Source: an uncultured bacterium (GTDB lineage: Bacteria; Bacillota_I; Bacilli_A; RFN20; CAG-826). Taken from it: 64,000 nt of DNA. Numbering within the stretch: the first letter of the stretch is position 1; each line of letters begins with the position of its first letter. The DNA lies in assembly GCA_949300345.1 (NCBI GenBank), contig CASGDR010000001.1:1-64000 (forward strand), read 5' to 3'. This document shows, piece after piece, positions 1 through 5,375 of this stretch. The notes below the pieces were generated by a model that made no database searches, had not been told where the DNA came from, and saw nothing but the letters and a program-made list of their open reading frames with translations. Position numbers and translations under genes: made by a program.

Positions 1-3000
1 GTTTGAGAGTCTTGCTAAAGCCATAATCTCTCTGACAGATATACTGCTCAAACGAAGAAGAACGAGTTTGAGAGTCTTGCTAAAGCCATAATCTCTCTGA
101 CGCCTCCTTCGCGACGGCGCGATACGTTGCGTTTGAGAGTCTTGCTAAAGCCATAATCTCTCTGACGCCCCGAGGGACGTAGCGCGTGGACAAATTGTTT
201 GAGAGTCTTGCTAAAGCCATAATCTCTCTGACTTCGACGTGACCGTACTTGAGATTGGCCGAGTTTGAGAGTCTTGCTAAAGCCATAATCTCTCTGACCG
301 CGCGTGGGCACGCGTTCTGCTTGATATAGTTTGAGAGTCTTGCTAAAGCCATAATCTCTCTGACGCCTCGCTGAAAAGTACCGCACCGTGCGGCGTTTGA
401 GAGTCTTGCTAAAGCCATAATCTCTCTGACAGGAAAGTAGCACTCTGCACAACGTTGAATAGTTTGAGAGTCTTGCTAAAGCCATAATCTCTCTGACGAG
501 CGCAAACGAGTTGGATGCGTTGATTCGTTTGAGAGTCTTGCTAAAGCCATAATCTCTCTGACATTGGCCTCTTCGACCATCAGGGTGCGGGCGTTTGAGA
601 GTCTTGCTAAAGCCATAATCTCTCTGACCGAGATAGAGGACCGTCTGCGCGAGCTTGAGTTTGAGAGTCTTGCTAAAGCCATAATCTCTCTGACACCGTC
701 TCGGCCTGTACGGCCAACACTTCCGTTTGAGAGTCTTGCTAAAGCCATAATCTCTCTGACGAGCGCAAATGAGCTGGATGCGTTGATTAGAGTTTGAGAG
801 TCTTGCTAAAGCCATAATCTCTCTGACTGAGCGCCAACGAGTTGGATGCCCTCATCAGTTTGAGAGTCTTGCTAAAGCCATAATCTCTCTGACAACAATG
901 GTGAATAGGTTTGAGCTGAATCCGTTTGAGAGTCTTGCTAAAGCCATAATCTCTCTGACCGAAAAGCCCGAGTTCATCTGCTCGCTCGAGTTTGAGAGTC
1001 TTGCTAAAGCCATAATCTCTCTGACAAAGACTTCTTTAGTCTCCGACTTTCTTCCGTTTGAGAGTCTTGCTAAAGCCATAATCTCTCTGACTTGATAGGC
1101 TTATTTTTGGACAGGGGGCCCGTTTGAGAGTCTTGCTAAAGCCATAATCTCTCTGACTAGTGGTGCTTCTTTGGTGGCTTTCTTACAGTTTGAGAGTCTT
1201 GCTAAAGCCATAATCTCTCTGACCAACTTTTTTCCGCTCAATTTATAATAAAGTTTGAGAGTCTTGCTAAAGCCATAATCTCTCTGACTGCTTGATATAT
1301 AAGTGCCCACTGACTGAGGTTTGAGAGTCTTGCTAAAGCCATAATCTCTCTGACTCCCTCTTGAAACGATGAAGAAGAAAGTAAGTTTGAGAGTCTTGCT
1401 AAAGCCATAATCTCTCTGACTTAAACAAGCGCGATCTACAATTGATGTTGTTTGAGAGTCTTGCTAAAGCCATAATCTCTCTGACAAGGAAAGGGGCGGG
1501 CCACCCCTCCCCGTGTTTGAGAGTCTTGCTAAAGCCATAATCTCTCTGACGGAATCAGTGCGTCCCATTCACGGAACAGCGTTTGAGAGTCTTGCTAAAG
1601 CCATAATCTCTCTGACGGAAGAAGGAAACGCCGTCCTTGCGCAGCTGTTTGAGAGTCTTGCTAAAGCCATAATCTCTCTGACGATATATATATATATTGA
1701 TATCAAGTGCGTTTGAGAGTCTTGCTAAAGCCATAATCTCTCTGACTTTTTTCCACTCAGCTTATAGTAAACGAAAGTTTGAGAGTCTTGCTAAAGCCAT
1801 AATCTCTCTGACACTTGTCGCCAACAAGCTCCATGATTACTTGTTTGAGAGTCTTGCTAAAGCCATAATCTCTCTGACTACTTGCCTTCTTCTACTCCGC
1901 AGACAAAGTTTGAGAGTCTTGCTAAAGCCATAATCTCTCTGACTGGTCTTGCGATGATGGTGCAATGCCTCTTGTTTGAGAGTCTTGCTAAAGCCATAAT
2001 CTCTCTGACGGCCGATCTGGTCTCTACAGGCGTTGACTCGTTTGAGAGTCTTGCTAAAGCCATAATCTCTCTGACCATACGACAAAATCACCATCAACAA
2101 CTTCGTTTGAGAGTCTTGCTAAAGCCATAATCTCTCTGACAACGATGTCGAAGAAGATTAGTCTTTCAATAGTTTGAGAGTCTTGCTAAAGCCATAATCT
2201 CTCTGACGAGCCACTCGGGACCTACGATGTCCTCCTCGTTTGAGAGTCTTGCTAAAGCCATAATCTCTCTGACCACGCAGTACCAGCGCACCCGCGCCGA
2301 TCTGTTTGAGAGTCTTGCTAAAGCCATAATCTCTCTGACTAAATAAATATAAATAAAAATATTAAAAATGTTTGAGAGTCTTGCTAAAGCCATAATCTCT
2401 CTGACGCCCTTTTGTGCTTGCGGGAGAACGCTAGGTTTGAGAGTCTTGCTAAAGCCATAATCTCTCTGACACTGTGTTGACGCCAGCTCGCTGTCGCTTG
2501 GTTTGAGAGTCTTGCTAAAGCCATAATCTCTCTGACGGATAGACCAGCGGGACGGATTGGACTGAAGTTTGAGAGTCTTGCTAAAGCCATAATCTCTCTG
2601 ACCGCGCGTGGGCACGCGTGTTCCTCGATATAGTTTGAGAGTCTTGCTAAAGCCATAATCTCTCTGACTATAACGATTGGTTTAGAGACCAAAACTACGT
2701 TTGAGAGTCTTGCTAAAGCCATAATCTCTCTGACGGCATCGGCCGAGTCCACCTGGCCATGAAAGTTTGAGAGTCTTGCTAAAGCCATAATCTCTCTGAC
2801 AAGCCTTCAGATATCGGAATACCTGGGCGGTTTGAGAGTCTTGCTAAAGCCATAATCTCTCTGACATACAGGTTCTCACGCAATATGGTTACAGGGTTTG
2901 AGAGTCTTGCTAAAGCCATAATCTCTCTGACGAGGCGATTAATCAATCGATTGATAAGAAGTTTGAGAGTCTTGCTAAAGCCATAATCTCTCTGACGGAT

Positions 3001-3045
3001 GCGATTCCGACCCCTGTCAACTCGTCGTTTGAGAGTCTTGCTAAA
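1..3045 (+). CRISPR. CRISPR array, 46 full repeats plus a truncated terminal repeat
   Basis: A 36-nt repeat beginning GTTTGAGAGTCTTGCTAAAG and ending CATAATCTCTCTGAC occurs 46 times without visible variation, from 1 to 2996, separated by 46 spacers of 28-31 nt (mostly 30). A 47th copy at 3027-3045 matches only the first 19 nt. A degenerate last repeat normally marks the leader-distal end, so the leader and newest spacers should lie at or beyond position 1, and transcription is inferred to run rightward. The repeat ends form an imperfect 9-nt inverted repeat (GTTTGAGAG / CTCTCTGAC). Length, GTTTGAGAG start and spacer size resemble type II arrays, but no cas gene or tracrRNA is in the window, so the type is inferred. 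Because the window opens exactly on a repeat, the array may continue upstream. Several spacers are homologous to each other. Confidence 0.99.
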
Positions 3046-3159: not shown

Positions 3160-3498
3160 ATGTGCTATCATTTGCCCATGAAACAAGAAACCATCGATAG
3201 AATCCGTCGCTTCAGCGAGGATAGGGACTGGGATCAGTTCCATAGTCCTGCCAACTTGGCCAAATCCATAGCCATCGAGGCAGGGGAACTGCTCGAATGC
3301 TTTCAGTGGAATGATGACGGATATGACATCCAGGAAGTAAAAGAAGAACTTGCGGATGTCATGGTCTATTGCATCGACCTTCTCGATAAGCTTGGCCTTG
3401 ATGCCGATGAAATCATCAACGAGAAGATGGAAAGTAACGAGAAGAAATACCCCGTGGAAAAAGCCAAAGGCTCATCGAAGAAATACAATAAGCTTTAA
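3160..3498 (+). CDS. MazG-like nucleotide pyrophosphohydrolase
   Basis: This is a small all-alpha NTP pyrophosphohydrolase of the MazG/dCTPase (RS21-C6) type, expected to hydrolyse (d)NTPs to monophosphates and pyrophosphate in the cytosol. The typical metal-binding pattern is visible: an EAGELLECFQW segment, then EVKEELADVMVYCIDLLDKL, giving the ExxE...ExxD ligand set. Length (112 aa) fits a single-domain enzyme. I chose ATG 3160 because AAAGG lies 7 nt upstream; ATG 3178 would match family N-termini (MKQETID) but has no ribosome-binding site. The stop overlaps the next start by 1 nt (TAATG), so the pair is probably translationally coupled. Its place between a CRISPR array and a nuclease-helicase suggests a role in phage response rather than house-cleaning, which is inference. 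Confidence 0.88.
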   Translation: MCYHLPMKQETIDRIRRFSEDRDWDQFHSPANLAKSIAIEAGELLECFQWNDDGYDIQEVKEELADVMVYCIDLLDKLGLDADEIINEKMESNEKKYPVEKAKGSSKKYNKL

Positions 3499-5375
3499 TG
3501 ATTATATACAGCGGCACCCTCAAGCAGTTCAAACAGGACGTTTATCTAAATAAGCTAACAGAGAACCTGACGAGCCTTTTCTTGTCCATGGGCCTAGGCA
3601 ATACGCCGGAAGCCGAAAAGCGTTCCTGGGAAAATTCATTGCAGAAGATGACCAACGTCATGAACCTGACTTCGGTCGATCCCGAGGCCCATGTCGCGAT
3701 AGAATACAAGATTCCCCATAGCCAGAAACGGGTTGATTTCATTGTTTCTGGTTTGGATGAGAATCGCAATTTCTCAGCAGTCATCGTCGAACTCAAGCAG
3801 TGGCAGGAAGCCCAGGCTACCATGGAACCTGATTTGGTAAAGACATATCTTGGTGGTTGCATAAGATCACACACCCATCCTAGTTACCAAGCCTATAGCT
3901 ATGCCCGCACCATCGAAAATTTCAACGAGGATGTCCTTACCTACAAGATAAGGCTCAAGCCGTGTGCCTATCTCCATAACATGAATAGAAGAAACGGAAA
4001 GGGAATCCTCGACGAGCGATATTCCGAGGTCCTTAGGGAAGCCCCTTCTTTCTTGATGGACGATGCCAAGGCACTAGCGGAATACATTGACCGCTACGTA
4101 AAGAAATCCGACGGCGGGTTCGTACTAAATGCGATTGAAAACGGAAGGCTCAAGCCCTCGAAATCCCTGCAGGATTGCATCGGTTCGATGCTTGAAGGGA
4201 ATGAGTCCTTCGTTCTTCTAGATGAGCAAAAAGTTGCCTTCGAATACATTTCCAAAGCCATATTCGAAGTCAAAAAAGGCCGCGGCAAGTCAACGATTAT
4301 CGTCAAGGGAGGGCCCGGCACCGGCAAAAGCGTCATCGCCATCAATTTGTTGGCTGATTGCATCAGAAAGGGTCTAGCCTGTGCTTATACAAGCAAAACA
4401 TCGGCTCCTCGCAACGTTTATTCCCGCGAGCTTCAAAAAGGCCATGGTCTCAAGCGAAGTTATATTTCCTCGCTTTTCATGGGATCTGGATGTTTTGTCG
4501 ATGCCGGAAACAATACCTTTGATGTCCTTCTGGCCGACGAAGCCCATCGCCTCAATAAAAAATCCGGAATCTATCAAACCAAAGGGGAGAACCAAATCCA
4601 GGAAATCATCCATGCCAGCCGTGTTTCCGTCTTCTTCATCGATGAAAGGCAAAAGGTCACCAACAGCGATTTCGGCTCCATTGTCGAAATCCGGGCCTCT
4701 GCCTTGCGTGAGGGGAGCCGTGTCCTAGAAGGGGAGGATTTCGAATTGGTCAGCCAATTCCGCTGCATCGGCTCAGAAAGTTTCCTCCGTTTTGTGGAGG
4801 ATTTGCTCAACGGGCAAAGGAGCAAAGTCTATGATCCGTTGGACTTTGATTTGAAAATCTATGACGATCCCTCCTTGATGCGCGAAGACCTCAGAAAACT
4901 GAACACGAACAACAAGACCAGGATGGTGGCCGGATATTGTTACAACTGGATCAGCAAGCATGATCCCACGGCTTTCGATATCCAAATCGGCGACTTCAAG
5001 GCCCAATGGAATTTCTCCTCGACGACTACCTGGGCCATCGACCCCGAAAGTTTCGATCAGGTGGGCTGTATACATACCAGCCAGGGGCTGGAGTTTGACC
5101 ATGTCGGAGTAATCATGGGCGAAGATATTCGCATGGAAGATGACGGACATGTCGTCTTTGACTACGAAAAGCGCGCCAAAAGCGACCAATCCTTGAAGGG
5201 AATCAAGAAAAGCAAAAACTTCGGTTTGGCCCAAGAAATCATCCGCAACACCTACATGACCCTGCTGACCAGAGGGATGAAAGGGTGTTATATCTACATC
5301 CAAGACGAGCGGCTTAGGGATTTTGCCAAAAAACTTCTGGCCCATTACGAAAATCCACGACACCTGAAGGTTTGA
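3498..5375 (+). CDS. DUF2075 helicase with N-terminal PD-(D/E)XK nuclease-like domain
   Basis: A 625-aa P-loop helicase-like protein of the DUF2075/COG3410 group. The N-terminal ~110 residues carry a PD-(D/E)XK-type signature: E69, D80 (in RVDFIVSG) and E98-x-K100 (in VIVELKQW), suggesting a nuclease. The helicase part has Walker A GGPGTGKS at 271-278 and a DEAH box (LLADEAH) at 344-350. Near the C-terminus come a superfamily I-type motif with TSQGLEFDHVGVI and then LLTRGMKGCYI. Expected activity is ATP-driven nucleic acid unwinding with possible cleavage; the substrate is unknown. The start overlaps the mazG-like stop by 1 nt. Schlafen-like and DUF2075 helicases are often found among defence genes (general knowledge); anti-phage function here is inferred from the CRISPR neighbour. 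It ends in TGA, confirming standard stop usage. Confidence 0.85.
   Translation: MIIYSGTLKQFKQDVYLNKLTENLTSLFLSMGLGNTPEAEKRSWENSLQKMTNVMNLTSVDPEAHVAIEYKIPHSQKRVDFIVSGLDENRNFSAVIVELKQWQEAQATMEPDLVKTYLGGCIRSHTHPSYQAYSYARTIENFNEDVLTYKIRLKPCAYLHNMNRRNGKGILDERYSEVLREAPSFLMDDAKALAEYIDRYVKKSDGGFVLNAIENGRLKPSKSLQDCIGSMLEGNESFVLLDEQKVAFEYISKAIFEVKKGRGKSTIIVKGGPGTGKSVIAINLLADCIRKGLACAYTSKTSAPRNVYSRELQKGHGLKRSYISSLFMGSGCFVDAGNNTFDVLLADEAHRLNKKSGIYQTKGENQIQEIIHASRVSVFFIDERQKVTNSDFGSIVEIRASALREGSRVLEGEDFELVSQFRCIGSESFLRFVEDLLNGQRSKVYDPLDFDLKIYDDPSLMREDLRKLNTNNKTRMVAGYCYNWISKHDPTAFDIQIGDFKAQWNFSSTTTWAIDPESFDQVGCIHTSQGLEFDHVGVIMGEDIRMEDDGHVVFDYEKRAKSDQSLKGIKKSKNFGLAQEIIRNTYMTLLTRGMKGCYIYIQDERLRDFAKKLLAHYENPRHLKV

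Follow-up and report, generated by a model that had tools for sequence, protein, structure and literature searches.

The window analysed here, 64,000 nucleotides in length, opens with a CRISPR array that is closed by a truncated terminal repeat at 3027:

1..3045, forward strand, type II-A CRISPR array of 46 identical 36-nt repeats (GTTTGAGAGTCTTGCTAAAGCCATAATCTCTCTGAC) and 46 spacers of 28-31 nt

This stretch is the trailer-side portion of the array. The only further copy of the repeat in the host genome lies at the extreme end of contig C9 (L012:11269-11304), where cas9, cas1, cas2 and csn2 are followed by a leader and the first repeat, and the same repeat was not found in the other genomes of the host genus searched. 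The cas genes match type II-A models (TIGR01865, 1.3e-236; TIGR03639, 1.1e-78; TIGR01573, 2e-17; TIGR01866, 1.9e-29), and Cas9, Cas1, Cas2 and Csn2 form the complete set for type II-A adaptation, encoded directly beside the array leader. Immediately upstream of cas9, a stretch resembling the repeat at 17 of 20 nt is read from the opposite strand and is followed on that same strand by a hairpin and T run that appear terminator-like by eye. It looks like the anti-repeat of a tracrRNA, as a type II-A locus should carry near cas9.

We infer that contig C9 joins the window contig, C1. The array is split over the two contigs at a repeat, and its leader-end (newest) spacers are absent from the assembly. 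The leader, the cas9-cas1-cas2-csn2 genes and the tracrRNA-like anti-repeat set the crRNA to the forward strand. With the leader and the cas genes placed on the left, lower coordinates correspond to newer spacers, and the assembly break within the array means that still newer ones are missing between the leader repeat of C9 and window position 1. At the trailer end, a MazG-like gene and a gene for a Schlafen group 3 helicase-domain protein adjoin the array (3160-5375). Within it, spacer 36 (2340-2369) is devoid of any G or C (TAAATAAATATAAATAAAAATATTAAAAAT), unlike the remainder of the array, while spacers 21 (1355-1384) and 33 (2141-2171) both carry ACGATG followed by Lys-rich codons (MKKKV and MSKKISLSI), as if they had been taken at gene starts.

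Three spacers in the left part of the window array, which we term cluster A, encode the same peptide:

498..526, forward strand, spacer 8 (cluster A), 29 nt, GAGCGCAAACGAGTTGGATGCGTTGATTC, SANELDALI
761..791, forward strand, spacer 12 (cluster A), 31 nt, GAGCGCAAATGAGCTGGATGCGTTGATTAGA, SANELDALIR
828..857, forward strand, spacer 13 (cluster A), 30 nt, TGAGCGCCAACGAGTTGGATGCCCTCATCA, SANELDALI

The first-pass annotation had reported these coordinates and sequences, the common frame, the predominance of third-position differences and the shifted ends, and all of this holds. Over 29 aligned positions, spacers 8 and 12 differ at 3, spacers 8 and 13 at 6, and spacers 12 and 13 at 7, which are distributed over codon positions 1, 2 and 3 as 2/0/1, 2/0/4 and 2/0/5, respectively. 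The position-1 changes comprise the Leu pairs TTG/CTG and TTG/CTC plus the C/A that opens the next codon. Thus, the 27-nt core contains seven variable sites, all seven synonymous (two at Leu first positions, the rest at third positions), and no amino acid is altered. The remaining five frames, by comparison, would contain 1-5 amino-acid changes or stops. Under random substitution on the core, an all-synonymous, stop-free outcome in any of the six frames has P = 0.0004 (P = 0.0016 with transitions only). The codon after Ile (C.., AGA and A..) is compatible with Arg in all three, as had been proposed, but is complete only as the AGA of spacer 12. Spacer 13 begins 1 nt earlier than its relatives, its leading TG fitting what we infer to be an ATG (Met) codon, and spacer 12 finishes 2 nt later. 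The three spacers therefore show what homologous sites of diverged phages should show, one frame with synonymous divergence. No chromosomal copy of the site exists, and matches in the host genome are confined to the three spacers themselves.

The pattern is wider than the first-pass annotation had recognized. In an all-against-all spacer comparison, we regarded as related those pairs that scored above 13, the maximum reached in 60 dinucleotide-shuffled spacer sets. The cluster A pairs score 23.0, 18.5 and 13.5, and two further pairs, clusters B and C, behave likewise:

299..328, forward strand, spacer 5 (cluster B), RAWARVLLDI
2603..2632, forward strand, spacer 40 (cluster B), RAWARVFLDI
1224..1252, reverse strand, spacer 19 (cluster C), YYKLSGKKL
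1747..1776, reverse strand, spacer 27 (cluster C), FVYYKLSGK

Spacers 5 and 40 (score 20) differ at 4 nt with one amino-acid change (Leu/Phe), and since they lie 35 spacers apart, this site was sampled at widely separated points in the history of the array. Spacers 19 and 27 (score 15) share YYKLSGK antisense to the crRNA, with all four changes synonymous (P = 0.015). Their offset by about 5 nt identifies them as overlapping rather than as one repeated protospacer, and their antisense orientation shows that the array does not follow the sense direction of cluster A as a rule. An 11-nt overlap between the ends of spacers 5 and 20 was rejected, as shuffled sets often reach its score. The assignment of cluster B to an N-terminal Rep motif was likewise dropped, because the W-A-R spacing misfits and the profiles give no signal.

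A blastn search with all spacers matched phage records solely through spacer 41; all of these records are microviruses, and the matches sit in the major capsid gene wherever a feature is annotated. We built profiles of six protein families from 19 genomes that represent a single gut group of gokushovirus-like viruses, against which five spacers stand out:

2669..2698, forward strand, spacer 41, YNDWFRDQNY, microvirus major capsid protein motif
1813..1842, forward strand, spacer 28, LVANKLHDY, microvirus major capsid protein motif (LKANKLHDYFTSVLP)
2406..2434, reverse strand, spacer 37, SVLPQAQKG, microvirus major capsid protein motif
1421..1449, forward strand, spacer 22, LNKRDLQLM, microvirus Rep motif VxKRDVQLF
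2274..2303, forward strand, spacer 35, TQYQRTRAD, microvirus DNA pilot protein motif TAYQRAVAD

All five score at least 16, compared with 0.1 spacers expected from shuffled sets, and each fits a conserved motif in its own frame with a permutation P of 0.0003 or less. In leave-one-out analysis, a score of 16 was attained by 37% of 30-nt windows drawn at random from such viruses, and a score of 20 by 24%, which suggests that roughly 8-13 of the 46 spacers (2/0.242 to 5/0.374) derive from the gokushovirus-like group, and more if the targets are more divergent. The best profile match of spacer 27 is also to microvirus Rep (consensus LVFYKKSKR; LVYYKCSGR in genome L065), with P = 0.015 in the frame preset by synonymy, and P = 0.15 is obtained for the longer peptide of spacers 19 and 27 at this position. 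The mapping of this pair to Rep is therefore suggestive only. Spacers 43 and 44 were not counted as capsid motifs because the fit is weak and spacer 43 also fits a second capsid motif in another frame.

The motifs resemble those of gokushovirus-like Microviridae of mammal guts (bajarodmic, Sigmofec and Dulem viruses; major capsid protein of about 630 aa), none of whose records is similar enough to qualify as the target itself. In IMG/VR, scans for exact matches to degenerate peptides returned nothing for the capsid motif YNDWFRDQNY or the cluster B peptide, and a search there for close relatives of one microvirus capsid was likewise negative. Microvirus contigs of ~5.4 kb with capsid, pilot and Rep genes occur in 2 of 224 genomes of the host family (L044, G074:C21; L045, G043:C58); these contigs may be binning artefacts, with free viruses having been assigned to the host bin. 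Microviral prophages in Erysipelatoclostridium and Mammaliicoccus sciuri were reported in a 2022 survey as the first microviruses in Gram-positive bacteria (PMC9239249). By one housekeeping protein, the nearest relatives of the present host among the genomes compared are labelled Bacillales and Erysipelotrichaceae, which makes it look Bacilli-like.

The source of cluster A was sought by several routes. Its peptide had no exact match in degenerate-peptide scans of IMG/VR. Six MSANELDA loci in that database are unconvincing, as none of the six continues with LI and most start within other open frames. In the blastn search with all spacers, cluster A matched no phage or plasmid record; a 22-nt plasmid match of that search, in a nod gene of Mesorhizobium, was put down to chance. 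About 600 related genomes of the same order and class gave scattered single matches to cluster A with 1-2 mismatches, none of them usable, which we provisionally put down to chance. The peptide occurred in none of the 80 distant microviruses that an alignment query returned. Against the microvirus profiles, SANELDALIR scores no better than its own permutations at conserved protein positions (P = 0.57; 0.45 with Met).

We consider it probable (about 0.85) that the copies arose by separate acquisition of one coding site from diverged relatives of a single invader. On three occasions, an ordinary type II-A CRISPR-Cas9 system would have taken homologous protospacers from diverged members of one group of mobile elements, most likely phages, with a separate phage lineage behind every variant. 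The site would lie inside a gene whose protein sequence is kept constant while its codons drift. That the same array holds five spacers matching microvirus proteins supports the sampling of phages. The 46 identical full repeats make mutation within the array after duplication unlikely, and, together with the shifted spacer ends, they leave separate acquisition from diverged relatives as the simplest account. The first-pass annotation had proposed sampling of at least three related viruses: a coding site under purifying selection in at least three diverged variants is borne out, while a single viral family is not established. Its claim that the crRNA carries the sense sequence stands, the direction being fixed as described above, and each cluster A crRNA would accordingly direct Cas9 to the opposite strand. 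It was also right about the direction in placing these spacers in the newer half of the array. This half, however, lacks the newer spacers lost at the assembly break, and the further claim of a current pathogen is not supported for the same reason.

The distribution of the mismatches bears on the use of such copies. The Cas9 seed lies in the 3' third of the spacer. Five of the six differences between spacers 8 and 13 fall into this third, so that neither should cover the target of the other. The retention of several variants would broaden immunity across a diverging phage group.

Separate acquisition by itself does not account for the number of copies. With 3000 sites, as for ordinary 40-kb phages under uniform sampling, about 0.3 related pairs are predicted among 46 spacers, whereas five are observed, so that some further factor is required. 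Candidates are target genomes of small size, hot spots of acquisition and selection that favours useful spacers, any of which could produce this multiplicity. One specific form, in which the adaptation machinery prefers the same sites in successive diverged phages (through sequence-fixed hot spots or Cas9-guided updating), we regard as unlikely. If true, such site-preferring adaptation would generate arrays with allelic series of one protospacer, of which the three clusters would be the trace.

Among the alternatives, the best survivor names a source and is compatible with separate acquisition: cluster A, like cluster C, would come from gokushovirus-like microviruses of about 5 kb, whose small genomes offer few acquisition sites, such that repeated sampling of one site is expected. 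The yield of five homologous pairs corresponds to about 200 eligible sites on the assumption that a single small genome had supplied all 46 spacers. The five firm matches to this virus group and the best match of the 19/27 pair to its Rep point in the same direction, and similar positions exist in its protein families, near the C-terminus of either a scaffold-like protein (family consensus MDSSQLRSLYD) or a small membrane-protein family (LSDEQLKKLVD). Against this, the profile score of the cluster A peptide does not rise above permutations, the group accounts for only the fraction of spacers estimated above, and its five firm representatives lie at spacers 22-41, outside the cluster A part of the array. 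We therefore hold a microvirus origin of cluster A to be possible but doubtful.

Updating primed by Cas9 cleavage appears improbable. Here, an older, partially matching spacer would have led Cas9 to cut a diverged relative, after which new spacers would have been drawn from that site or its vicinity. Primed acquisition close to Cas9 targets has been documented in type II-A systems (PMC7105378, citing Nussenzweig et al, 2019), and in the present array spacers 12 and 13 are adjacent with spacer 8 nearby. However, it is not unusual for two out of three positions among 46 to be neighbours, and the 3' third of spacer 13 carries 4 differences from spacer 12 and 5 from spacer 8, which makes cutting by the older guide unlikely. 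Moreover, primed spacers are reported to be enriched across the 500 bp that flank the target and not at exactly the same site. Cluster A may also stem from three paralogous copies carried by one element. Duplication of a single spacer inside the array followed by mutation, which would suit the location of the copies within 360 bp, is highly improbable, since copies that differ by up to 24%, synonymously only and with shifted ends, lie between repeats that are all identical.

Separate acquisition from diverged relatives, our preferred reading, extends a known theme. Arrays with several spacers against one recurrent mobile element are well documented, for instance in Legionella with LME-1, where a protospacer on a priming plasmid was also noted to have yielded two spacers independently (PMC5071653). 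Our array resembles the Legionella arrays in that one kind of invader was sampled repeatedly and independently; it differs in its type II-A system, in its putative invader and in its copies, which are synonymous variants that have diverged at a single coding site. Type II-A primed adaptation (PMC7105378) shares the subtype and the extra spacers against an already recorded phage, but its spacers spread over flanking DNA, in contrast to the same site (or the ~5-nt shift of spacers 19 and 27) seen here. An equivalent description of a clean synonymous spacer series was not found in a targeted literature search of partial coverage. The clean series is a mildly unusual feature, while repeated acquisition itself is already known.

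Synonymous allelic series in an array expose the reading frame and the constraint of a viral gene, even for a virus that has not been sequenced, and they supply peptide probes for finding that virus. Otherwise, the array is an immune record of the ordinary kind that offers a useful hint as to which viruses infect the host. The more useful by-product is the link that it draws between a gut group of gokushovirus-like microviruses and a Bacilli-like host, a modest phage-host clue.
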